DNA of 58,744 nucleotides, from positions 1 to 58,744 of the forward strand of contig CABYBM010000003.1 of assembly GCA_902517175.1 (NCBI GenBank), read 5' to 3'. This document shows, one piece after another, positions 1,371 to 57,870 of the stretch; the first letter of the stretch is position 1, and the number at the start of each line of letters is the position of its first letter. A model generated the notes under the pieces. The model was not told the origin of the DNA. It saw only the letters and a program-made list of their open reading frames with translations, and searched no databases. This stretch comes from an uncultured Pelagibacteraceae bacterium (GTDB lineage: Bacteria > Pseudomonadota > Alphaproteobacteria > Pelagibacterales > Pelagibacteraceae). Made by a program: the position numbers and the translations under genes.

Positions 1371-2135
1371 GTGTTATACCTTATAACATTTATTTTTGGA
1401 AGTATATGGGGTAGCTTTAGTAACGTATGTATTCATAGAATTCCTGAAAATATAAGTGTTGTCACAGGAAGATCTCACTGTCCAACTTGTAAAGCTCAAA
1501 TTAAATGGCACAACAACATTCCAATATTTTCTTATGTCCTTTTAAAAGCAAAATGCAGAGACTGTTCAGCTAAAATTGATAGTAGATACTTTATAGTAGA
1601 ATTAACATCGGCAATAAACTTTACAGTGATTTTTTATTTCTTTGGGATTTCGTTAACCACCCTTCTGTTTTTTATTTTAAGTATCTGTTTTGTGATTATT
1701 TTTTTTATTGATTTAAAACATTTTATTATTCCAAATGAGTTGACATACCCTTTGATGATAATAGGTTTATTAAAATCATTTGATCCAAATTTAAACACAA
1801 GCCTATTTCCAAATTTAGTTAACTCTTTAATAGGCGGTTTGTTTGGTTACGTAATCATTTGGTTAATAATTTCTATTTATAAAAAATTAAGAAACAAGGA
1901 AGGAATGGGCTTAGGGGATGCGAAGTTGCTGTCTGCAATTGGTTTTTGGTTTGGATGGGCTTCAATTCCTTTTATAATATTTTTTTCATCAGTCATTGCA
2001 CTTTTGAGTGTAGTACCAGATATAATTAAAAATAAAAAAAATCTTTCGTCTCAAATACCTTTTGGACCTCATATAATAATTGGATGCTTGATGTTCCTTG
2101 TATTCAATGAACAGATAAAGTTATATTTAAATTAA
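1371..2135 (+). CDS. pilD: Prepilin peptidase / N-methyltransferase (type IV prepilin leader peptidase), GTG start
   Basis: Two CxxC pairs (CPTC, CRDC), multi-TM, GMGLGDAKLL (GxGD aspartyl protease motif). Confidence 0.92.
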   Translation: MLYLITFIFGSIWGSFSNVCIHRIPENISVVTGRSHCPTCKAQIKWHNNIPIFSYVLLKAKCRDCSAKIDSRYFIVELTSAINFTVIFYFFGISLTTLLFFILSICFVIIFFIDLKHFIIPNELTYPLMIIGLLKSFDPNLNTSLFPNLVNSLIGGLFGYVIIWLIISIYKKLRNKEGMGLGDAKLLSAIGFWFGWASIPFIIFFSSVIALLSVVPDIIKNKKNLSSQIPFGPHIIIGCLMFLVFNEQIKLYLN

Positions 2136-3101: not shown

Positions 3102-6100
3102 TTAATAGCCGGTATCTCTCCAGCCGCCTTTATTAGATAAAACTTCACCAGCCACTGCTAATATTGAGTATAATGTATCAGGATTTTCGCTAGGTCCTGC
3201 GACGTTTGCATAAAGTTTGTCTCCAAATATTACTAATTCAGATAAAACCCCTTTTCTAACAAATGTACAATTACTTCCATTTGCAGATGCACCTTTAACA
3301 AGTTTATGTGAATTATTAGTTCCACACTCGTCATCTGCTACGCAAATATATGCATTACCAATATTACACCTGTTTACTCCTGGCGGTGGCTCATAAACTG
3401 GAAAATATACTTGTCCTTTAAATAAAGTTGGTGGAGCAGATGCTTTTCGATGAGTATTGTTATCACCTTGTGTATCTAAATGAATTACCCAAGCACTTTC
3501 TGCATTTGGACAAAGTGATCCATCAGTGTCCCCTGTAACATCTGAACAAACAGTTGCATCATCTATCGACTTAGCATTATTAGCTCCCTGATGAGCAAGA
3601 GTAGTAAAATCTGGATTAGTGAATGAAGGAATAGTAACTCCATTTAGATGTTTAAAATATGGGAAATCAAAATCTCTAACACCATATAAAATATTATCCA
3701 TATTACGGTCCATGGCACCTAAAGAATTAAAGTCTCCCGTACCACCAAACAACCAAAAATCTTTTGTTGTCACTCCTATACCTGCATCCATTGAGAAAAA
3801 AGTGTAACGTTGATTAGTAGTATTGGCATTTAATCTAAACAAAGTTGTTTGATCAAATAACTTAGCATCGTTTTCTGTAGAGTCTGTTAAATTTATTTTA
3901 GTAATTTTTCCTTCTCTATCGTTAATATAAACCATTGCTCCACGCCAAGGAATTCCAAATGCAGTATCTGGAGTAATCACAAGTGGAGAGGTTGGAACTG
4001 CATTATTAATATCGCTACCGTTAGGTGTTGCGATCACATCATTTCCAATTACTACACCGTCTGGTGAAGTATCAACAATTGTAATTGGCCCGCCGTTTTG
4101 GTCTCCCCCATAGATTTTTCCTGGTTCCTCCAAATTGTCTAATTCAACCATAAATAAAGCAGAGCCCGCACATAAGTTATTATTAGCCATTCCAGCACCC
4201 ATAATAGCAACATATTTATCATTTGCTGGATCACTTCTTTCACTTTCAATGTCAGATGGTAATTTTACAATTCTAGGTGTTGACCAAGTTTCTCCTAATT
4301 TACTATAGTCAAAGTAAGGATCTATTCCTGTCGCTACTGTACAAGAGGTTTGAATAAAAATATTATTTGTTAATCTTGTTTCATTATCACTGATACCTCC
4401 TGGATTATTAATTTTGTCTTCTGGGAAAGTAATTACAAATTGACCATTAACCATTTTTGCATCTGAAAACGCGACAGGTTTAAATTCACCTTCAACCAAT
4501 TCTGTAACATTTAATTTATTTGGATCTATTGAGACGTTATCTGGTGTGTCAAAGAAAATATCATTAAAAGTAAATGTTTTTCCTACATAACAAGATGCAG
4601 TACCATCAGTCCTAAAATTATTAGTTGCATCTTCATTTGATTGACAAGCAGCTATTGCATCTTGTTGAGTAGTTACTCCAGAATCAAGTCCACCATCAGT
4701 ATTAATGGCAGAATCTAAATTATCCTGCGCCTTTTCTGCTTCCTCTGAAAGGCTTAAGGAAGCTGAACTTGAGTAATATTCTTCTGATCTAACTTCTCCT
4801 TCATAATCCATAATATATACAACATTGTTAATATAATCATTGTATACAGAGAACATATGTAACGGTCCTAAACCATCTTTTACTATTGGTTCAGTTACAT
4901 CTAAAACTGAAAAACCTGATCCACCACGACCAAATGGTTGAAATAATATCGTATGCCAACTAGCTGAGCTTTCAGGTTCCCCTTCAGGAGTTAAACCTTT
5001 CATAAACACGTCGTGAACAATTGGGGAGCCATCTACTCCAAATATTGCGTTACTACCTCCTTGATACCCATCAACTTTGCCATCAAGGTTAGCATTTATT
5101 AATGTGGGTAATTTTCCAACTAAGAATGGTGGAAGGAACGCCCATTCTTCATCACCAGTTTCTGCATTAAATGCATGAAGTAATCCACTGTTAGAACCTG
5201 CATACAAAACATTTCTTCTATTTTCATGTTGATTTCTAAAGGCTTGGTAATTATTTATAGTTCTAAAGTATGCTTCCTGATTGTTATCAGTAAATTGAGT
5301 ATTTCCATCTGGTGCCCCAATTTCAATTAGTTGAGAATGATATATATCCCCTAACACATGTTCTCTTAACTCTGTTGTGTCACAATTTCCATTATAATCA
5401 AAAAAATCTTGACCAGCTAAAAAACGCAGAAGTCCATCACGTTCATCATCTGTGGTATCATTCCCACCACAATAAGAGGATGAAGTATGGTAATTTGAAA
5501 GTTCAAATCCTAATCTTGTCATCTCCCCTTCTAATAAATGTGCAGTAGTGTCACTAACATTATCCCAATTACCGATATAATCGAAAGATGGATCTGAAAG
5601 TGGTGTCCAAATATTTCTAAGATCACTTATGCTTGGATCAGCTGCTCCTCCTGAAGATTGAGATCTCACTTGAACTGCCGCATCCCAATTTCCTGGCGCA
5701 TCTGCATCATGCTCAACTGTTCCGTCAGCATTTAATGTTTTTCTTAAAATAGTTCCTTTCCACTCACCAAATTGTTCATAAGCGAATTGTGCTTGGTATA
5801 ATGAGCCACCCTCCTGAACAGTTGCTGTAATTGAAGGTGCAGTAAATGCTAAACGCTCAGCTAAAATTTGTCTAATCTTTTGTTGAAGTTCTGTTTTAAG
5901 TGCTTGAGGAGTTCTTGCAACAATAGTTGGTTCACAATCTTCACCGCCAGCATTGTCACATGAACCATGAACAGCTAATGCATCAAAATATGCCATACCT
6001 CTTGCATCAATTCCATCTCCATAAGCAACCATTAAAGTTTTAACACCTAATTCATTTCTTAATCTAGTAATTCTAGGGGCAGCTTGTCCTCTAAATTGGT

Positions 6101-7754
6101 CTAGAACTCCCGTACCACCTGTAAATTTTCCATCCCCAATGACTATTACGAAATTTAATTGACAATCAGAATTTGGATCATGCGGCGAAACTGGGCCAAA
6201 AAAATAATCATGAGCCATTTGGGACCAAGCATTAGCATCTGTTTTTCCATCAATAGTTATCGTTGAAAGATATGGGATTATTTTTGCTGCACCTTCAGGG
6301 CTGATTCCAACCTGAAAACAAGAATCTTTGTCACAAATTCTGCTTCTACCATCTGGATGATTACCTTGCCATCCACCATAATATGGAGCCCCACCATTCC
6401 AATGACCAAAACCAAAATTTGCACCACTTGTCAAAGAGGTATCAGTAAGAATTGCTGTTATTGCTTTTTGTGCACCTTGTAACCTTGATAGTTTTGGGCC
6501 TCCATATTGTATTTGCCATGCACTATCTCTTCCTGCAGCAGTGAAACTGGCTTCTGTTAGCTCATCAACATAACCATTATGACTAAAAATAAGTCTTCCA
6601 TTTGAAACCTGTAAGCCAGTTATATCATCACTAATTCTAATATCATCAGCATCTAAATTACCTGCAGATGCCGAATTTGATAATCCACTACTTGTTCCAG
6701 CGGATGCAGTGATTCTGCAAGTGGTATTTGAAGTCCATTCTACTCTGTGAATTCTTCTCTTACCCTTATGACCTCCAACATAAAACACATTGTCAGAGCT
6801 GCTTGAAAAATCCCAACGAGCGAAATAACCAATGCTACTTCCGTGACCCCTGCAATATCTAAAATTTGAATCTCTGCCATCATCTATTACTGGTATTCCA
6901 TCAAAATCTAAAGTATTATAACCATATAAATGACCATTAGCAGAAATATAAATTTTAGTGGCGTCACTGCTTAACCTAATCGTCCATCCATTATATAATC
7001 TTCCATATGCATCACTTCTCCCTTTACCTCTGCCAGCCACTTGAAAACATGTACCATCAGTAATATTACAGCTTAATTGGTAGGCACCTTTTTTCACCCC
7101 TCCCTTACCAAATGCTGCTAAAATAAGATCTCCACTTGAATCTGTAGCGGTGTCATAACCTAATATTTGACTAGAGTTAGTAGGAGTTATTGCAAGTCTA
7201 CATCTATATTGATTATCAAGAGCAATTATTGATGTCGACCCACTTTTATCGTATTGAGCGACAAATAATAAATTTTCATTAGAAATTGTTGTTCCGGCAA
7301 CACTAACACCGGTATGATATCTTACTTCGTGCATTCGAACAAATCTGCCAATATAGTGGTTAGTAGTCCTCGACCCATCTCTTATACGATGATCACAACG
7401 CTGATCAGTACTACTGTTAGACCACCATCTATCTCTTGTATAACTTCCCCCTAATTGATCTGTCCCTGTAATATTAAGTTTTGTACCTGCGCTATCAAAA
7501 AGTATCAACCCACCATCTTTACTATCAGTAGACGCTAAAACTCTATTGCCATTTCCATCGATGGCAAATGAGGATTGGTCAGGTATTGCATCTCCTATTT
7601 TATTTTTCATACTCTTGGAACTATCTAATAGAATTAAAATATTAGCTGGAACATCACCTTCACCAGATCCTGGTGGTAACGGTTTTGCATAAGTTAATTG
7701 ATTAAAGTTTAAAAGTAGAATTAAAAGAATAAAAATTTTAAATAATCTTTTCAT
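3102..7754 (-). CDS. pilY1: PilY1-family type IV pilus tip protein with vWA-like MIDAS
   Basis: Signal peptide, DSSKS MIDAS motif, C-terminal PilY1 domain (NVLYAGSNSGLLHAFNAETGDEEWAFLPPFLV...IFGVDGSPIVHDV), flanked by minor pilins. Confidence 0.92.
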   Translation of the reverse strand: MKRLFKIFILLILLLNFNQLTYAKPLPPGSGEGDVPANILILLDSSKSMKNKIGDAIPDQSSFAIDGNGNRVLASTDSKDGGLILFDSAGTKLNITGTDQLGGSYTRDRWWSNSSTDQRCDHRIRDGSRTTNHYIGRFVRMHEVRYHTGVSVAGTTISNENLLFVAQYDKSGSTSIIALDNQYRCRLAITPTNSSQILGYDTATDSSGDLILAAFGKGGVKKGAYQLSCNITDGTCFQVAGRGKGRSDAYGRLYNGWTIRLSSDATKIYISANGHLYGYNTLDFDGIPVIDDGRDSNFRYCRGHGSSIGYFARWDFSSSSDNVFYVGGHKGKRRIHRVEWTSNTTCRITASAGTSSGLSNSASAGNLDADDIRISDDITGLQVSNGRLIFSHNGYVDELTEASFTAAGRDSAWQIQYGGPKLSRLQGAQKAITAILTDTSLTSGANFGFGHWNGGAPYYGGWQGNHPDGRSRICDKDSCFQVGISPEGAAKIIPYLSTITIDGKTDANAWSQMAHDYFFGPVSPHDPNSDCQLNFVIVIGDGKFTGGTGVLDQFRGQAAPRITRLRNELGVKTLMVAYGDGIDARGMAYFDALAVHGSCDNAGGEDCEPTIVARTPQALKTELQQKIRQILAERLAFTAPSITATVQEGGSLYQAQFAYEQFGEWKGTILRKTLNADGTVEHDADAPGNWDAAVQVRSQSSGGAADPSISDLRNIWTPLSDPSFDYIGNWDNVSDTTAHLLEGEMTRLGFELSNYHTSSSYCGGNDTTDDERDGLLRFLAGQDFFDYNGNCDTTELREHVLGDIYHSQLIEIGAPDGNTQFTDNNQEAYFRTINNYQAFRNQHENRRNVLYAGSNSGLLHAFNAETGDEEWAFLPPFLVGKLPTLINANLDGKVDGYQGGSNAIFGVDGSPIVHDVFMKGLTPEGEPESSASWHTILFQPFGRGGSGFSVLDVTEPIVKDGLGPLHMFSVYNDYINNVVYIMDYEGEVRSEEYYSSSASLSLSEEAEKAQDNLDSAINTDGGLDSGVTTQQDAIAACQSNEDATNNFRTDGTASCYVGKTFTFNDIFFDTPDNVSIDPNKLNVTELVEGEFKPVAFSDAKMVNGQFVITFPEDKINNPGGISDNETRLTNNIFIQTSCTVATGIDPYFDYSKLGETWSTPRIVKLPSDIESERSDPANDKYVAIMGAGMANNNLCAGSALFMVELDNLEEPGKIYGGDQNGGPITIVDTSPDGVVIGNDVIATPNGSDINNAVPTSPLVITPDTAFGIPWRGAMVYINDREGKITKINLTDSTENDAKLFDQTTLFRLNANTTNQRYTFFSMDAGIGVTTKDFWLFGGTGDFNSLGAMDRNMDNILYGVRDFDFPYFKHLNGVTIPSFTNPDFTTLAHQGANNAKSIDDATVCSDVTGDTDGSLCPNAESAWVIHLDTQGDNNTHRKASAPPTLFKGQVYFPVYEPPPGVNRCNIGNAYICVADDECGTNNSHKLVKGASANGSNCTFVRKGVLSELVIFGDKLYANVAGPSENPDTLYSILAVAGEVLSNKGGWRDTGY

Positions 7755-7757
7755 AAA

Positions 7758-8282
7758 TTAAAACATCTCTACTATATCTGGATCAGCTAATAGACTAAAA
7801 TAATCTTCTTTCGAAATAATTAGCTGTTCATAAATCCCATTAAAATCCTGTACTCGTCCATAAAGTACCATGTTAACTATAGTGGACATGTTAATAGCTC
7901 CAATCCATTCATCATTAATAACTTGATCAGTTGTATAACCTAAATTTGTTCTTGCAAAATTTAAAATTCTATTATCTTTGGCTTCACCTGGCATACCTGA
8001 AAGTTCTGTTCCAATAATTTTACCTTCTCTAATAAAAACTTTTATAAAAGTATTTTCTAATTGAGAATTTTTGCATAAGTTATTGCTTGCATACATTTTA
8101 GAATATGTGAAAATCTTAGTGTCATTATCATCTGAAGGCTCATCTAAATAGTCATATTTATCAATAATATTTGAAACTGGAGTGCCAATTTGTTCTTTTA
8201 AAAATTCACATGCAATAGCAAAATTTGGTAAGCTGAGATTTGCCAAAAACAATATTAAAATAGATTTTAAAAAAAATTTCAT
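7758..8282 (-). CDS. Secreted protein of unknown function embedded in the pilus cluster
   Basis: Signal peptide (MKFFLKSILILFLANLSLPNFAIA); 3 bp from pilY1; no family recognised. Confidence 0.6.
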   Translation of the reverse strand: MKFFLKSILILFLANLSLPNFAIACEFLKEQIGTPVSNIIDKYDYLDEPSDDNDTKIFTYSKMYASNNLCKNSQLENTFIKVFIREGKIIGTELSGMPGEAKDNRILNFARTNLGYTTDQVINDEWIGAINMSTIVNMVLYGRVQDFNGIYEQLIISKEDYFSLLADPDIVEMF

Positions 8283-8349: not shown

Positions 8350-9123
8350 TTAGCCTGATAAAATTACTAATGTTTCTAAGGGTATTAAGATTTCAGGATC
8401 ATCTATATCATTAAGTGCTGTGCCTTTTGGCATGAAATATCCGCACCCATATAATTTGTATGCATTTCCCTGCTGTTGGGCATTAGTAGATGTTTTTTTT
8501 AAACTGGCACCAGCACCTTTAAAAGTTGATCTTCCAACATTGATGGCAAAAAATTCCCATCTGTATCTTTTCATATGATTAATTTCTTCATCAGAAGCAC
8601 TTTCAGCATTTAATATAGGTTCAATTAATTCTCCAAAATTCCAAAGTGTTTGATGAACGGCAACTAATGTATTGCCAGCATCATCTTTAAGTAGGTTTCT
8701 AAAGCTAGTAGAACAAGGAGTACTCAATACATTAGTTATGTTTGTCGGTATCCCTCTCCCATTTGGCCAAGGAGAGCTTCCATCTGTATGTCTTGCAAAA
8801 CCGCCATTACCAGATGCTAAAGTTTGTAATTGGGCAACATAATTATTGTGTGCTTCTAATTCTTGAGCAGTTGCACCAGCACCAGGAGGAGTTAATCCAC
8901 CTGGATCTACCCAGGGACCCATCATTTGATTAATTAAATATTTTTCAGCTTCAAGCAAAGCATGTTCGGCTACGTAAAATGTTTGTTGATATTCATCACT
9001 GGTATTATTGCTTTGATGGTCGCTAGAAGAAATTACAATCAAGCTCCCACCCATTAGAGACATCACCAGTAAAAGCACAAGTGATAAAATAAGAGTAAAA
9101 CCTTTTTGATTATTTTTATTCAT
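8350..9123 (-). CDS. pilX: PilX-like minor pilin
   Basis: Prepilin N-terminus KG|FTLILSLVLLLVMSLMGGSL, lacking Glu5 as is typical of PilX/GspK; locus context. Confidence 0.8.
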   Translation of the reverse strand: MNKNNQKGFTLILSLVLLLVMSLMGGSLIVISSSDHQSNNTSDEYQQTFYVAEHALLEAEKYLINQMMGPWVDPGGLTPPGAGATAQELEAHNNYVAQLQTLASGNGGFARHTDGSSPWPNGRGIPTNITNVLSTPCSTSFRNLLKDDAGNTLVAVHQTLWNFGELIEPILNAESASDEEINHMKRYRWEFFAINVGRSTFKGAGASLKKTSTNAQQQGNAYKLYGCGYFMPKGTALNDIDDPEILIPLETLVILSG

Positions 9124-10061
9124 TAAAAAATTCCATCATCAACAATGTTTCTTGTATATACTGTAACAACTACGTTATCCCTTAAATATCTATCTGAATA
9201 TTTTTTAACTGTTCTTGAAAATCCACTTAACTGTCTTTCATTTCCCTGCCTTGCATCAAACCTAAAAAATTCTTTTTCTGATCTGAATGCTAATCTAATA
9301 TCTACAGATCTAACTTTATATAAATTTTTTCTAGCACTATCATTAGATGGGTTAGGGTTAGGTGAAAGTTTTTTTCCTTCTTTATCAAGAGCTATAAACT
9401 CCATGTCTTCGACGTAATCTTTTACTAATTGTTTATGATAACACTCACTACAATCACTTACCCAATTTCCTTCTCTGGGCCAAGTAGCTGTATCTGAACT
9501 CCTAGATTGTCGCCAACTTATCTTGGATTTATAAACTGCATATCTTTTGTTTTGGCCATCAGCATCTTGAGTAGGTAAGGCATAATAAGTTACTTTATAT
9601 CTTTTATAGGGCTGGAGTTTGTCAATTTGATTAAAGTCGTCAAAGACAATGTGAATTTTATCACAACATAGATCTCCAATATCATTTTTAGCTACTGGTG
9701 TTGGAACAGTATCACCAATGTTGTGACCTAGTTGATTTTGTATAATTACTAAGGGATCATGACTTTCTTTAATTGAAGTCGCTCCCCCAATGAATTCTAA
9801 GTAGCTTTGTTCAGGATAACCTAATTCATTTGTTCCAAGATAATATTTAAATCCTGACATTCTAATATCTCGAATTAATAATTCTACCAAATCTCTTGAT
9901 GATCTACTAATCTTTGCTTTGTCAACAACTTGATTGTAACTAGTATTAATAATTGTATAAGTTGAATACATTGCAGCCATCATCAATGATGAAACGACTA
10001 CTGCAATCAACATTTCAACTAAAGTAAGCCCTACAATATTTTTTAAATATTTTTTTTTCAT
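9123..10061 (-). CDS. pilW: PilW-like minor pilin
   Basis: VG|LTLVEMLIAVVVSSLMMAAMYSTY prepilin motif; order between pilX and pilV. Confidence 0.82.
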   Translation of the reverse strand: MKKKYLKNIVGLTLVEMLIAVVVSSLMMAAMYSTYTIINTSYNQVVDKAKISRSSRDLVELLIRDIRMSGFKYYLGTNELGYPEQSYLEFIGGATSIKESHDPLVIIQNQLGHNIGDTVPTPVAKNDIGDLCCDKIHIVFDDFNQIDKLQPYKRYKVTYYALPTQDADGQNKRYAVYKSKISWRQSRSSDTATWPREGNWVSDCSECYHKQLVKDYVEDMEFIALDKEGKKLSPNPNPSNDSARKNLYKVRSVDIRLAFRSEKEFFRFDARQGNERQLSGFSRTVKKYSDRYLRDNVVVTVYTRNIVDDGIF

Positions 10062-10778
10062 TTAACCACTAGGTGTTCCAATCATTCCACCTCCTCCATC
10101 TCCACCACCTGAGTCCGTATCAGTTGTTTTTATTTTATAGTCTGATTGGAAATATAAATATTTTCTTTTTTTTCCATTATTCAAAAACATCTCAACTCTA
10201 CCAATATAAATTGGATCATCGAATACTAAGTTATTTTGATAGGTACAGCCACCCCATCTGCATACCTTAAATGTTTCTACTTTTTTTGTTTCATTATTGT
10301 CTTTACATTTTAAAAATCTGTTTTCATTAAATATTGCGTTCCATTTTTGCTCTTTGTTTCTTGGAGCATCATTATTTTGATTTTCATAAATATTGTCAGT
10401 CTTAGTATTATTTGAGCTGTTTGATGAATTTCCACAATTCAAACTTGCATTCCAGCCATTAGTATTTAAGTGATCTGAAAATTTTTTTAAACTGCTTGCA
10501 TCACTGCCATCTGCAAACGACATTGTACCATCATTATTATATATAATATTTTCATTATCTGAATTTGTGCCGTATAAAGTGTTTTTGCTACCGATGACAT
10601 CTTCGGCTATCATTTCAGTTAAATAGTTTGCTTTTGTTCTGTCTCCTGAATTATCAATAGATTGGACTGAAAAATTTGTCATTTGTAATATGGCTATAAA
10701 ACCAATTCCGACAATAGCAGTCGATACTAAAGCCTCTAAAATTGATAAACCAGAATTATTAGATCTTTTTTTCTTCAT
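10062..10778 (-). CDS. pilV: PilV-like minor pilin (start moved to MKKKRSNN)
   Basis: SG|LSILEALVSTAIVGIGFIAILQM; ATG at 10778 lies just after the upstream pilin stop; Gly-rich C-terminus. Confidence 0.8.
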   Translation of the reverse strand: MKKKRSNNSGLSILEALVSTAIVGIGFIAILQMTNFSVQSIDNSGDRTKANYLTEMIAEDVIGSKNTLYGTNSDNENIIYNNDGTMSFADGSDASSLKKFSDHLNTNGWNASLNCGNSSNSSNNTKTDNIYENQNNDAPRNKEQKWNAIFNENRFLKCKDNNETKKVETFKVCRWGGCTYQNNLVFDDPIYIGRVEMFLNNGKKRKYLYFQSDYKIKTTDTDSGGGDGGGGMIGTPSG

Positions 10779-10780
10779 AT

Positions 10781-11554
10781 TTATTGAGCAACCCAATTTC
10801 CACCGGTCCATTCTTTTTTGCCGTCCTCAGGATCAATTGTATACACATTATTAAATCTTTCATATGTGATATTACCAAATCTTGACCATTCTATAACGTA
10901 TAGATTATCATGTTCAGTTATTGGTTCACCTGTTACGTTATCAATATCACATTCAAATCTTAATTTGGATCTATTACAAATAAATAAAAAGTTATCTACA
11001 ATAACGTCATCTGTCCCCGAAACCAATTGACCATTACCACTATACCATTGGTCATTTTTACCAAAACAAACTGCGCCTATTTCATCACGCCAAGTGGTTG
11101 CAACATTTTCTAATATTATTTGTCTTACTTCTATCTTATCTAAGTCAATTACTTGGTTTCTATCTGGGTCTGGATCTTCATCCCAGTAATCTTGATCAGC
11201 AATATTGCATCGATTATTTGGTTTTTGCCACCAATCACTTTCTCCATTATTTAGAAGTGCACCAATTGTACTTGATTTCATTCCTTTTGAAGTGACAATT
11301 AACCCATCCTCTCCATTTATCAGTTGACCCTCTTTAATATCCACTTGAACAAATGCATATTGGCCTCTTTGAACTTGTGAATTTATTCCTTCAATTAAAG
11401 ATCTTATTTTAATTACCTCACTTCTGACTAGTCTATCTTTTCGCCATTCTGAAAAATTTGGATAGCCAACAGCTGATATGACGCCAATGATTACAACGAC
11501 AATAATTAATTCAAGGATATTAAACCCTTTAATCTTCTCGTCCTGCACTTGCAT
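10781..11554 (-). CDS. Type IV pilin / GspH-FimT-like pseudopilin
   Basis: KG|FNILELIIVVVIIGVISAVGYPNF prepilin motif. Confidence 0.8.
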   Translation of the reverse strand: MQVQDEKIKGFNILELIIVVVIIGVISAVGYPNFSEWRKDRLVRSEVIKIRSLIEGINSQVQRGQYAFVQVDIKEGQLINGEDGLIVTSKGMKSSTIGALLNNGESDWWQKPNNRCNIADQDYWDEDPDPDRNQVIDLDKIEVRQIILENVATTWRDEIGAVCFGKNDQWYSGNGQLVSGTDDVIVDNFLFICNRSKLRFECDIDNVTGEPITEHDNLYVIEWSRFGNITYERFNNVYTIDPEDGKKEWTGGNWVAQ

Positions 11555-12542
11555 CTATCTTGCCTGCTTTAACTAATTCTTCTAAAGATTTAGTCATTGT
11601 GATCATACCATCTCTCACTGCAGTTTGCATAATGCTTGGTATTTGATGAATTTTAGCTTCTCTAATTAAGTTTTGAATTGGAGCAGTACACTTCATCACT
11701 TCGAAAGCTGCACATCGGCCTTGACCATCTTTTGTTTTAAGAAGTCTTTGAGTAACTACCATCTTTAAAGAAGATGATATCTGAGCTCTTATTTGAGCTT
11801 GTTGTTCGGGTGGAAAAACATCTATAATTCTATTTATTGTATTTGGGGCACCACTAGTGTGGAGGGTTCCAAAAACTAAGTGTCCTGTTTCAGCAGCAGT
11901 GAGTGCGAGAGAAACAGTTTCTAAATCTCTCATCTCACCAACTAGAATTACATCTGGATCTTCTCTTAGTGCAGCCTTTAATGCACTAGCAAATGTTTTG
12001 GTTTGTTTGCCTACCTCTCTATGAGACACGATACTTTGTAAGTCTTTATGAATAAATTCGACTGGATCTTCAACTGTAATAATATTTGCAGTTCTAGTCT
12101 TATTAATTTCGTTTACAATTGCCGCAAGTGTCGTAGACTTACCTGATCCAGTTGGTCCAGTAACCAATACCAAACCTTTATGCATATCCACTATGTCATA
12201 TAGAACTTGTGGTAAATCAAATTGTTCCATTTCAGGAATTACACTCTCTACTCTTCTTAATACAGCAGCTGTACCTTGAATAGTTTTATAAAAATTAGCT
12301 CTAAATCTTAACCCGCTTAATGTTACTGACGAGTCTAGTTCATGAGTTTCGCTAAACCTCTTCATTTCAATTTCGTTACAATTAGTAGATATCAGATCTT
12401 GAAGATCTTGTTCTTTAACAGTTATTTCTTTAATTTTATGTATTTCTCCAGTTTGTCTAAACGCTAATGGCCAACCAGTTCTTATATGAAAGTCAGAAAT
12501 TTTTTTATTATTTTTTGCTAATTCTTCTAATTTTTCAAACAT
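11529..12542 (-). CDS. pilT: Type IV pilus retraction ATPase
   Basis: Walker A GPTGSGKST, GEMRDLETVSLALTAAETGHLVFGTLHT, AIRNLIRE-like PIQNLIRE motif. Confidence 0.93.
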   Translation of the reverse strand: MFEKLEELAKNNKKISDFHIRTGWPLAFRQTGEIHKIKEITVKEQDLQDLISTNCNEIEMKRFSETHELDSSVTLSGLRFRANFYKTIQGTAAVLRRVESVIPEMEQFDLPQVLYDIVDMHKGLVLVTGPTGSGKSTTLAAIVNEINKTRTANIITVEDPVEFIHKDLQSIVSHREVGKQTKTFASALKAALREDPDVILVGEMRDLETVSLALTAAETGHLVFGTLHTSGAPNTINRIIDVFPPEQQAQIRAQISSSLKMVVTQRLLKTKDGQGRCAAFEVMKCTAPIQNLIREAKIHQIPSIMQTAVRDGMITMTKSLEELVKAGKIDASAGRED

Positions 12543-53570: not shown

Positions 53571-55031
53571 ATGAATTCTATAGTGATTGGATCTGGATTT
53601 GGAGGAATTGCTGCAGCTTTGCGCCTAAAGGCAAAAGGGCATCAAGTTAAATTAATTGAAAAACATCCTGATCTTGGTGGTAGAGCTAGAGTGTTTAAGA
53701 AAAATGGTTTTATATTTGATGGTGGCCCAACTGTAATTACTGCACCCCACTTAATTAATGAGTTGTTTGAATTATTTAAAAAGGATCCAAAAAACTACAT
53801 TGAGTTATCTCCTCTTAAAATTTGGTACCAATTTATTTTTGAGGATAAATCTAAATTTAATTATTCTGGTGATGAACCTAATATGGTTAAACAAATAGAA
53901 GATATAAGCAAAGATGATGTTGAAGGATATCAAAAATTAGTAAGTTTTACCAAAAAGATTTTTGATAAAGGGTTTACAGAGTTAGCAGATGTTCCTTTTG
54001 ATAAACCTTTTGTAATGATGCAACAACTTCCAGCGCTACTTAAACTTAAAAGCTATAAATCAGTTTACTCATTAGTATCTTCATTTATAAAAAATGAAAA
54101 ATTAAGAAGAATGCTCAGTATGCATCCACTATTGGTAGGAGGTAATCCATTCACCACTACTTCAATTTATGGACTAATACTTTACTTAGAGAAAAAATGG
54201 GGAATCCATTATTCTATGGGGGGCACAGGAAATATTATTAAAGGTCTAGAAAAACTTATGCTTGAAGAGGGAATTGATATAATCAAAAATAGTGAAGTTA
54301 CTGAGATCATTTCAAAAAGTAATAAAATTACCGGTATTAAATTAAATAACCAAGAAATCATTGAGGCTGAAAACGTTGTTTGTAATGCAGATCCACCAGC
54401 TTTTTACGAAAAAATGTTAAAAAAAAATGGTCAAGGCTCTTTTATTTTTAATTGGAAAAAGAAAAGAATGGAATATTCAATGGGTCTTTTCGTTTACTAT
54501 TTTGGAACCAAAAAAATTTATCCAAATGTTGAGCATCATACAATTAAGTTTGGAAATAAATACAAAGAACATTTAGAAGATATTTTTAATAATAAGAAAT
54601 TAAATAACGATATTAGCTATTATCTCCACAGACCCTCGGCGACTGACAAATCTATGGCACCGGAGGGAAATGACTGTTTTTATGTTCTAGTCCCAGTTCC
54701 AAATAATCAATCTAGAATTGATTGGCGAACTGAAGGTGAAAACATGAAAAATTTAGTAATTGATAAAATGGAAAAAGATTTAATGCCAAATCTTAGAGAA
54801 AATATTGTGGCTGATTTTTATTTAACCCCAGATTATTTTGAAAAAGAGTTAAACACAAAATTTGGATCTGGATTTTCAATTCAGCCTAAATTCACTCAAT
54901 CTGCATATTTTAGATTTCATAATAAATCTGAAATTTATGACGGACTTTATTTTGTTGGAGCTGGAACTCACCCTGGAGCTGGGGTACCCGGAGTGTTATC
55001 CTCAGCAAAAGTCTTGGATAAACTGCTTTAA
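53571..55031 (+). CDS. crtI: Phytoene desaturase
   Basis: VIGSGFGGIAAALRLKAKGHQVKLIEKHPDLGGRARVF, FDGGPTVIT, GLYFVGAGTHPGAGVPGVLSSAKV. Confidence 0.97.
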   Translation: MNSIVIGSGFGGIAAALRLKAKGHQVKLIEKHPDLGGRARVFKKNGFIFDGGPTVITAPHLINELFELFKKDPKNYIELSPLKIWYQFIFEDKSKFNYSGDEPNMVKQIEDISKDDVEGYQKLVSFTKKIFDKGFTELADVPFDKPFVMMQQLPALLKLKSYKSVYSLVSSFIKNEKLRRMLSMHPLLVGGNPFTTTSIYGLILYLEKKWGIHYSMGGTGNIIKGLEKLMLEEGIDIIKNSEVTEIISKSNKITGIKLNNQEIIEAENVVCNADPPAFYEKMLKKNGQGSFIFNWKKKRMEYSMGLFVYYFGTKKIYPNVEHHTIKFGNKYKEHLEDIFNNKKLNNDISYYLHRPSATDKSMAPEGNDCFYVLVPVPNNQSRIDWRTEGENMKNLVIDKMEKDLMPNLRENIVADFYLTPDYFEKELNTKFGSGFSIQPKFTQSAYFRFHNKSEIYDGLYFVGAGTHPGAGVPGVLSSAKVLDKLL

Positions 55032-55882
55032 TGTCTGCTAAAAATTATCTAGCAACATATGCAAAATCTTTTAACTGGGCTGGTTTTTTTTTACCAAAAG
55101 ATACTTATAAAAAGTGTTCAGCCCTTTACGATTTTTGTAGAGTAGCTGATAATATTGCAGATGATGAAAACACTATTACAGTCAAAAAAGAGAAATTTAA
55201 AAAATTTAAAGATAATTTTGAAAATAAAAATTTCGACGATCCAATAATTAAAAATATTTGGGATCTGATTTCTGAATATAATATTTCAATTACAATTATT
55301 CATGATTTATTTGACGGTATCAATTCTGATATCAAAGAACAGGTAAAGTTAACTACAGAAAAAGAGTTACTAATTTATTCTTATCGAGTAGCAGGTACTG
55401 TAGGACTAATGATGGCAAAAATACTAAAAGTAAATAAAAAAAATTCTTTAAAATCTGCAATTGATCTTGGTATCGCTATGCAACTAACAAATATTTCAAG
55501 AGATGTAATTGAAGATTTTAATAATAACAGGGTCTACATTGATCAAAATTTTGAAAATATAAAATCTACAATTGAATTATCAGAAAAATTTTATGAAAAT
55601 TCTTTTTACTCAATTAAAGAAATACCCTTAACTTTTAGACTTTCTATTTTAGTTGCAAGAAGAGTTTATAGAAAAATTGGTTATAAAATTTTAAACAAAA
55701 AAAACTTTGAAAATTATAAAAAATCAGGCAAAATTTATGTCAATAATTTAGAAAAAATAATTGAAACATTACTTTCAATAATTGATTTACTTAAACTTGT
55801 ATTAACCAATAATAATGATGATAATATTGATCATGACCATTATTTAATTAATGAAGAAATAAATTTAAATGAGAGAATTTGA
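55031..55882 (+). CDS. crtB: Phytoene synthase
   Basis: ALYDFCRVADNIADD, AMQLTNISRDVIEDFNNNRVYI. Confidence 0.95.
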   Translation: MSAKNYLATYAKSFNWAGFFLPKDTYKKCSALYDFCRVADNIADDENTITVKKEKFKKFKDNFENKNFDDPIIKNIWDLISEYNISITIIHDLFDGINSDIKEQVKLTTEKELLIYSYRVAGTVGLMMAKILKVNKKNSLKSAIDLGIAMQLTNISRDVIEDFNNNRVYIDQNFENIKSTIELSEKFYENSFYSIKEIPLTFRLSILVARRVYRKIGYKILNKKNFENYKKSGKIYVNNLEKIIETLLSIIDLLKLVLTNNNDDNIDHDHYLINEEINLNERI

Positions 55883-56933
55883 CTATATAATTATTGGTGG
55901 AGGTTGTGCGGGTCTTTCATTAGCATATGAGCTAGAAATTAATAATAAATTAAAAAATAAAACTTTAGCAATCATTGAACCAAGAGATGATTATAAAAGA
56001 GATAAAACCTGGTCTTTTTGGAAGGTTTTTCCACATAACTTTGATGATTGTGTAAAAAAAAGTTGGAATAATTTTTCAATAAATACAACATATGAAACAA
56101 AATATGTAGATTGCCAATCTACCCCGTATCAGACGATTGATAGTGGTATATTTTATGAAAAAATACTTTCAAAACTTAAATTAAATGAAAACATTTATTT
56201 TTTTAAAAGTGTTGATCAAATAGATAAATCAAATTCAATTGTATTTAATAGTGTGCCTAATTTTGAAAATAAAAAAAGCGAGTTGTGGCAACATTTTTGT
56301 GGTGTGGAGATAGAAACTCGAAAAGATTTTTTTGATGAAGAAATATTTAATTTAATGGATTTTAAATGTGATCAAAGAAATAGAGTGCATTTTTTTTACA
56401 CACTACCCTTTACAAAAAAGACAGCACTTGTTGAAACTACTTGGATATCAGAGCTCAATAACAGTTCACTAAATGATTATGATGAACAAATTGATGACTA
56501 CCTATGTAATCATTTAAACTTAAGACAATGTAAAATACATTTTAGAGAACAAGGAGCCATTCCTCTTTTTAGACAAAAAAATGTTAATAAATCAAATGAA
56601 ATTAACATAGGATCAGCAGGAGGCATGACTAGATTAAGTACCGGTTATACTTTCCTAAATATTCAAGAGCAAAGCAGATATATAAGAAAAAACATAGAAA
56701 ATATAAAAAAAGTAAATCTATTTAAAATAAATTCAAAATATGATTTTTTAGATAAAATATTATTAAGGGTTCTTAAAAATAATCCTAACGAAATGGGTAA
56801 TATTTTTTTCAAAGTTTTTAGTTCAAAATCTGAGACAGCCATTAATTTTTTATCAAATAAAAGCAGTTTTTTTGAAGATTTAGAAATTATTCTTAAAATG
56901 CCTAAGTGGAAATTTTTCAAAGAATTGATTTAA
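55869..56933 (+). CDS. crtY: Lycopene beta-cyclase
   Basis: DYIIIGGGCAGLSLAYEL, DKTWSFW, YTLPFTKKTALVETTW, GGMTRLSTGYTF. Confidence 0.94.
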   Translation: MREFDYIIIGGGCAGLSLAYELEINNKLKNKTLAIIEPRDDYKRDKTWSFWKVFPHNFDDCVKKSWNNFSINTTYETKYVDCQSTPYQTIDSGIFYEKILSKLKLNENIYFFKSVDQIDKSNSIVFNSVPNFENKKSELWQHFCGVEIETRKDFFDEEIFNLMDFKCDQRNRVHFFYTLPFTKKTALVETTWISELNNSSLNDYDEQIDDYLCNHLNLRQCKIHFREQGAIPLFRQKNVNKSNEINIGSAGGMTRLSTGYTFLNIQEQSRYIRKNIENIKKVNLFKINSKYDFLDKILLRVLKNNPNEMGNIFFKVFSSKSETAINFLSNKSSFFEDLEIILKMPKWKFFKELI

Positions 56934-56934
56934 T

Positions 56935-57870
56935 ATGAGTAATAAAATAAAAAAAATAAATCTAAATCATTCTTTTATTTTTTTTTTATTTTGTAATATA
57001 TTTTCAATAATAATTTTTAAATTTAGTAATTTAAATATATCGTCCTTAGCATGTTTACTACTTATATTGATAATAGGTGTTTCGCATGGTGCACTGGACC
57101 ATTTAAAAGGTAAAAAACTTCTCACAATTTTAAATATTAAAAAATCTTATATTTTTTATTTATTTTACATATTAATAGCTATCTCGGTGATATTGATATG
57201 GACTGTTTTGCCAGCTATTACCTTAATAATTTTTTTGGTAGTTGCGTCGTTTCATTTTGGTAAAGAAGATACACAATTTTTAATAAATAAAAGTTCAAAT
57301 TTAATTCCAATACTTTATTTTTTGAGAGGCTTATTGGTTATTATTACTCCTTTATACTTCAATTTCGATGAGACGGTGTATATATTTAAAATGTTGCTGA
57401 TTGATAATGAGCAATTTTACTCAAGTTTAAGCTTTATTGAAAACTATAAAATTATTGAAATAGCTATTGGTTTAAGTGCACTATCGAGTATTATTTTATT
57501 TTTAACCGAGTTTAACTTTAAAAAATTTGCGATTTTATTAGATTTTTTCTCAATTATAATTTTAAACTATTACCTATCTCCATTAGTTGCATTCACAATT
57601 TACTTTTGTTTTTTACATTCTATTAGGCACACAATTTCACTTTCTGTTGAAATGGATAACACAAACCTAAAAAATGGTTTTCAGTTATTTGTTAAAAAAG
57701 CTTTTCCATTAACTGTTTTGACTGCTATTTTCTGTTTAGTGGGTCTTTATTTCCTAAATAATGTCTATGAATTAGATAGTGCGATATTAAAAATAACTTT
57801 TATAGGTTTGGCGTCTTTGACCTTTCCACATATATTGCTGGAATATTTTTTAGAAAAAAATGAAAAATAA
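56935..57870 (+). CDS. blh: Beta-carotene 15,15'-dioxygenase, Brp/Blh family
   Basis: Multi-TM with GVSHGALDH, ASFHFGKEDTQ, HSIRHTISL histidine motifs. Confidence 0.92.
   Translation: MSNKIKKINLNHSFIFFLFCNIFSIIIFKFSNLNISSLACLLLILIIGVSHGALDHLKGKKLLTILNIKKSYIFYLFYILIAISVILIWTVLPAITLIIFLVVASFHFGKEDTQFLINKSSNLIPILYFLRGLLVIITPLYFNFDETVYIFKMLLIDNEQFYSSLSFIENYKIIEIAIGLSALSSIILFLTEFNFKKFAILLDFFSIIILNYYLSPLVAFTIYFCFLHSIRHTISLSVEMDNTNLKNGFQLFVKKAFPLTVLTAIFCLVGLYFLNNVYELDSAILKITFIGLASLTFPHILLEYFLEKNEK

Follow-up and report, generated by a model that had tools for sequence, protein, structure and literature searches.

A predicted NHL-type beta-propeller interrupts the vWA domain of the putative pilus tip protein PilY1 in Pelagibacterales

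Introduction

A published survey of InterPro lists 68 architectures for PilC/PilY1 proteins (PMC8179133). In models of the M. xanthus pilus, the N-terminal domain of PilY1 forms the ultimate tip (PMC11046646). In the A. baumannii PilY1 orthologue ComC, deletion of a finger within the vWA domain has the same effect as deletion of the full protein: adhesion is reduced, and both twitching and DNA uptake are lost (PMC10374093). In P. aeruginosa PA14, Cys152 of the vWA domain affects force behaviour as well as signalling (PMC8806160). Such inserts in the vWA domain of a tip protein are also known from Caulobacter crescentus CpaL (PMC12607857) and from the arms of PilB; we did not find a propeller insert described in PilY1, and the open-access literature yielded nothing joining PilY1 with NHL repeats.

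SAR11 ranks among the most abundant bacteria of the ocean. Gene clusters over-represented in the Mediterranean include one from SAR11 with a PilY1 annotation (PMC3686209). In the open-access literature, no treatment of PilY1 domains was found in work that joins Pelagibacter and PilY1. Here, we describe a pilY1 locus within a stretch of 58,744 nucleotides, hereafter the window, from an uncultured Pelagibacteraceae bacterium (contig CABYBM010000003.1). The source genome is small and incomplete (817 kb, 63% complete).

Results

The PilY1 of the window consists of 1550 amino acids (3102..7754, minus strand) and is predicted to be a type IVa pilus tip protein on the basis of its Pfam family, its match to a known PilY1 and the neighbouring minor pilin operon. 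A Pfam search with the whole protein places PF05567 at aa 801-954 (E 1.4e-10, above cut-off), marking the start of the C-terminal PilY1 propeller (4893..5354, minus strand), and phmmer matches the protein to P. aeruginosa PilY1 (3hx6, E 4.5e-14). The hydrophobic N-terminus, ending ..LTYA/KPLPPG, is a likely signal peptide (aa 1-23; 7686..7754, minus strand). Reading in one direction, the locus comprises a PilT-type ATPase, four pilin-like genes, a gene for a conserved 174-aa protein, and pilY1; the prepilin peptidase PilD (1371..2135, plus strand) lies on the opposite strand and is identified by Peptidase_A24 (E 3.5e-23) and A24_N_bact (E 2.7e-32). The ATPase (11529..12542, minus strand) matches T2SSE with E 6.9e-51 and appears by sequence to be of the PilT/PilU type, which would imply pilus retraction. 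The minor pilin genes (8350..11554, minus strand) are PilX-like, PilW-like, PilV-like and FimU-like, as judged from Pfam together with gene order: PilX_N is above cut-off (E 9.5e-6), the others have N_methyl motifs that fall under the Pfam cut-off, and PilW is weak. The 174-aa protein (7758..8282, minus strand), located between pilX and pilY1, is found in 31/49 SAR11 PilY1 loci, where its gene usually lies directly upstream of pilY1. Its start resembles a signal peptide, and a Pfam search gave no family. In outline, the locus reads as a type IVa pilus tip operon. Elsewhere in the window (53571-57870, plus strand), translations read as CrtI-, CrtB-, CrtY- and Blh-like carotenoid/retinal synthesis genes, matching expectation for SAR11 with proteorhodopsin.

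The original prediction held that the vWA domain of this protein is split by a propeller-like insertion at window positions 6489-7577 (minus strand), and this interval indeed corresponds to aa 60-422 of the 1550-aa reading frame. The MIDAS motif DSSKS occupies aa 44-48, while the helix LQGAQKAITAIL starts at aa 425. The gap between the MIDAS loop (D44-S-S46-K-S48) and vWA helix 1 (aa 424-437) therefore amounts to about 380 residues. Strand beta1 and MIDAS loop 1 are contained in aa 37-49 (7608..7646, minus strand), and the remainder of the domain, beginning with helix 1, in aa 424-638 (5841..6485, minus strand). This remainder carries T505 and D541, so two of the MIDAS residues come after the insert. 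All five residues, D44, S46, S48, T505 and D541, are invariant in 33 aligned sequences.

The structure prediction that had been proposed for aa 25-700 was carried out with AlphaFold2 using 33 homologues (mean pLDDT 82.7). The model runs beta1 (aa 37-44), insert, alpha1 (424-437)-beta2-beta3-alpha-alpha3-beta4-alpha-beta5-alpha-beta6-alpha, which is the canonical vWA order. The topology is complete, and its sole interruption is the beta1-alpha1 loop. We also looked for an uninterrupted vWA domain elsewhere in the protein and found none; Pfam reported PF05567 as the only family and no vWA match. When a profile of the post-insert half was compared with the PDB, no significant vWA match was obtained, the best being TRAP (E 0.75). 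The same half aligns in hhalign with the corresponding block of other PilY1 proteins around the MIDAS T and D (P 2.2e-5, probability 76.5%). In place of a significant vWA sequence match, the assignment is based on the AlphaFold2 model, on the residues of the MIDAS and on this alignment with other PilY1 proteins. Recognition of vWA domains by sequence profiles is common, but not strictly required.

The insert (aa 54-422; 6489..7595, minus strand) is predicted to be a six-bladed NHL-type beta-propeller. Modelled alone (AlphaFold2, aa 54-424), it is all-beta with a pLDDT of 93.0 and a pTM of 0.92, and since it folds by itself at this quality we regard it as an autonomous domain. A Foldseek search of the PDB with the insert, as had been suggested, returned beta-propellers throughout among the matches listed. 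Of the matches that consist of one domain, the NHL domain of Brat, which has six blades, is the best (1q7f; TM 0.65 for target and 0.51 for query, rmsd 4.7). A viral fold library gave generic propellers. We considered a seven-bladed WD40 propeller, because DDB1/WD40 entries lead by Foldseek E-value, but the single WD40 domains superpose less well (rmsd 6-9), and the 24 strands in the AlphaFold2 model suit six blades.

Those 24 strands were assigned to six four-stranded blades, the first two of which are separated by a variable stretch. By model strands, blade 1 covers aa 60-98 (7461..7577) and blade 2 aa 141-189 (7188..7334), all blades being on the minus strand. Between them lies a variable elaboration (aa 99-140; 7335..7460, minus strand), delimited by model strands and alignment, that is missing in a short form of the insert. 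Blade 3 follows at aa 195-242 (7029..7172), blade 4 at aa 256-290 (6885..6989), blade 5 at aa 313-352 (6699..6818) and blade 6 at aa 378-418 (6501..6623). Six blades are a strong reading of the model, drawn from strand assignment and match quality rather than measured. The "several cysteines" noted here number six, at positions 120, 185, 229, 236, 301 and 346, with Cys185 in blade 2 and Cys236 in blade 3 both conserved in 44/44. Across homologues the cysteine count of the insert is always even, either 6 or 4. The D-A/B-C side loops appear more variable than the A-B/C-D ones; as the turns that are conserved have a structural role in NHL repeats, we draw no conclusion on face-specific variability. 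One long-form insert, that of L072, measures 466 aa in the aligned fragment and has about 70 extra residues before strand B of blade 5.

Searched by sequence alone, the window insert matched no family, delta-60 and NHL included. The signal emerges from its homologues. The family delta_60_rpt is matched in 7/33 inserts (best E 1.1e-6), and a homologue profile of the insert matches NHLRC2 (E 1.6e-4). Pelagibacterales inserts occur in a long form of about 370 aa (up to about 400) and a short form of about 295-335 aa. The short form is found in a second SAR11 PilY1 class (about 1360-1390 aa) and in L020, which belongs to another family of the order. It consists of plain NHL-like repeats, six of them read by eye, and matches the Thin NHL domain (E 9e-8) and Pfam NHL (E 4e-5 to 8e-5). 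The two forms align end to end in hhalign (probability 98.9%, E 2.4e-17), and on these sequence grounds they are homologous over their full length. The simplest account would be one insertion event predating the split of these lineages. We also considered the insert as a copy of the C-terminal PilY1 propeller. This is not favoured, because the insert matches NHL/delta-60 and never PF05567; the model and the Foldseek results likewise agree with the original view of an extra propeller distinct from the C-terminal one. Overall, the propeller fold and its insertion site are well supported.

Some 45 full-length pilY1 genes of SAR11, taken from single-cell genomes and MAGs that are independent of one another, show the same arrangement. 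Since the same architecture recurs in many independent genomes, chance and misassembly, including a chimera, are ruled out. Across the roughly 45 homologues, the distance from MIDAS to FGFGHW is 384-435 aa, reaching 498 in L072. The insert is present in all complete Pelagibacterales PilY1 heads examined. A profile of the long-form head matches 55/148 Pelagibacterales genomes (53/134 of those of good quality) and 0/398 other genomes of the phylum sample. Outside the order, the short-form profile retrieved NHL-like proteins or vWA pieces, and no single reading frame was seen to join both; a PilY1 fragment at a contig end (G744) was left out of this judgement. A plasmid search returned a single PilY1, from Legionella, that does not bear on the insert. 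One Pelagibacterales genome (G630, contig C1) carries three PilY1 heads close together, at about 901.6, 925.5 and 930 kb.

Comparison with PilY1 from other Pseudomonadota qualifies how unusual the insertion is. Neither insert profile matched any of 40 sampled reading frames (HMM search), so the NHL-type propeller is what sets SAR11 apart in this sample. A large segment at this site is, however, ordinary: in nine other proteobacterial PilY1 proteins, MIDAS and helix 1 already lie 155-221 aa apart, and tip vWA inserts have been published. The site therefore appears to be a common acceptor, and the propeller the SAR11 version of what it holds. Two other Pseudomonadota PilY1 proteins (L141 and L144) have a different vWA insert, located after strand beta2, in which a beta-rich unit is repeated two or three times.

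The insert evolves faster than its surroundings. Its mean identity to the window protein is 31%, compared with 54-61% elsewhere. In distant pairs, identity within the insert drops to 11-20%. In disjoint pairs, dN/dS of the insert exceeds that of the carrier in 17/20 (P 3e-4) and that of the vWA domain in 16/20 (P 7e-4). Median values are 0.27 for the insert and 0.18 for both carrier and vWA domain, all below 1. The insert is under weaker or changing constraint, and with dN/dS below 1 positive selection is not indicated; relaxed constraint is as good an explanation of this rate as selection for new binding. When the window was compared with L031, dS was about 0.05 through aa 1-625 and then 0.2-0.4, and nucleotide identity was 94-99% over window positions 5800-8050 and lower on either side. 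This tract, spanning the PilY1 head and most of the 174-aa gene, is recombination-like. Module swapping does not seem to be the rule, since over all pairs insert and carrier divergence are strongly correlated (r 0.93); this tract (P0001/L031) was the one clear case.

Discussion

We lean, with moderate confidence, towards reading the vWA domain with its NHL-type propeller in the beta1-alpha1 loop as a lineage-specific recognition module on a conserved scaffold, at the tip of a retractable pilus. The fold, the site, MIDAS conservation, homology of the inserts, absence from the sampled Pseudomonadota PilY1 and faster evolution are computed parts of this explanation. We postulate that the C-terminal propeller and minor pilins would display the head at the far tip. 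The fast-evolving propeller may then be the surface that recognises what SAR11 pili hold on to, and the conserved vWA domain may be the scaffold, bearing the pull of retraction and possibly sensing it. This division of roles is suggested by the published PilY1, ComC and PA14 results together with the rate pattern; evolutionary rate and position make recognition by the insert plausible. If so, the conserved carrier and the fast-changing propeller single out the part deciding what SAR11 cells may hold.

The main rival is that the propeller acts as a mechanical cap over the MIDAS, pulled aside under load to expose the vWA adhesin, so that the insert regulates binding instead of performing it. The insertion loop directly follows MIDAS residues, and the MIDAS is invariant while the insert varies. 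Furthermore, to judge from MIDAS distances in related proteins, PA14 Cys152, with its effects on force behaviour and signalling, probably falls within the segment found at this site. A pure cap, however, should be as conserved as the vWA domain beneath it, and we consider this reading rather unlikely. The rate pattern also bears on escape from phages or predators that use the tip as a receptor, in which case any function of the propeller itself would be secondary. Higher dN/dS in the insert, indels within the propeller and the recombination-like tract over the head of P0001 and L031 are all consistent with such escape, but dN/dS stays below 1, and the correlation between insert and carrier divergence (r 0.93) speaks against rampant swapping. 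This makes escape an improbable main explanation.

A tip for DNA uptake, with DNA or DNA-protein particles as the ligands of propeller and MIDAS in transformation by PilT-driven retraction, would suit the adjoining PilT-type ATPase and minor pilins. The minor pilin ComZ of Thermus offers a parallel, in that it carries an inserted beta-solenoid thought to bind DNA (PMC8179133). Nothing DNA-specific was noticed in the insert, however, and we hold this reading to be distinctly improbable. That the insert is a neutral spacer, enlarging the head with no partner, is scarcely credible. Its evolution, fast yet constrained, and the 11-20% identity between distant pairs would fit a spacer, but the examined PilY1 heads of Pelagibacterales have kept the insert even though the genomes are streamlined, and its length and disulfide-like cysteines are preserved.

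Known systems close to the SAR11 PilY1 include Pseudomonas-type PilY1 of type IVa pili. Both have a signal peptide (a likely one in SAR11), an N-terminal MIDAS vWA domain, a C-terminal PilY1 propeller and a minor pilin operon, and in both a large segment separates the MIDAS from helix 1. In the nine sampled Pseudomonas-type proteins, this segment of 155-221 aa lacks a propeller signature, whereas in SAR11 it is predicted to be a six-bladed NHL-type propeller of about 295-400 aa. ComC likewise has an insert in its vWA domain, but instead of a propeller this is a finger that covers about 90 aa (166-256; PMC10374093). CpaL differs in being a minor pilin of a Tad pilus, and its insert consists of two six-stranded barrels without a good structural match (PMC12607857); beginning about 40 aa past the MIDAS, it probably occupies another location in the vWA domain than that of SAR11. 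In Streptococcus sanguinis PilB and in RrgA, two arms flank the MIDAS of a vWA domain (PMC8179133). These arms are small, and neither protein is a PilY1, the former being a type IV pilin and the latter an adhesin of Gram-positive bacteria.

The NHL domains of Brat, Thin, TRIM71 and NHLRC2 are six-bladed propellers like the one predicted here, with matches in sequence and fold, but do not lie within a vWA domain and have no pilus link. In integrin alpha subunits with an I domain, a vWA domain is inserted into a seven-bladed propeller. Here too, a MIDAS vWA domain and a beta-propeller are joined by insertion in an adhesive head. The SAR11 PilY1 would be the mirror image, an analogy and not a homologous arrangement. 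An integrin-like coupled head, in which ligand, metal and pulling force interact at a retractable pilus tip, may by this analogy have evolved independently, although we think it unlikely. Alongside these systems, the SAR11 PilY1 is a clear further example of the pilus-tip vWA domain as a docking place for lineage-specific modules.
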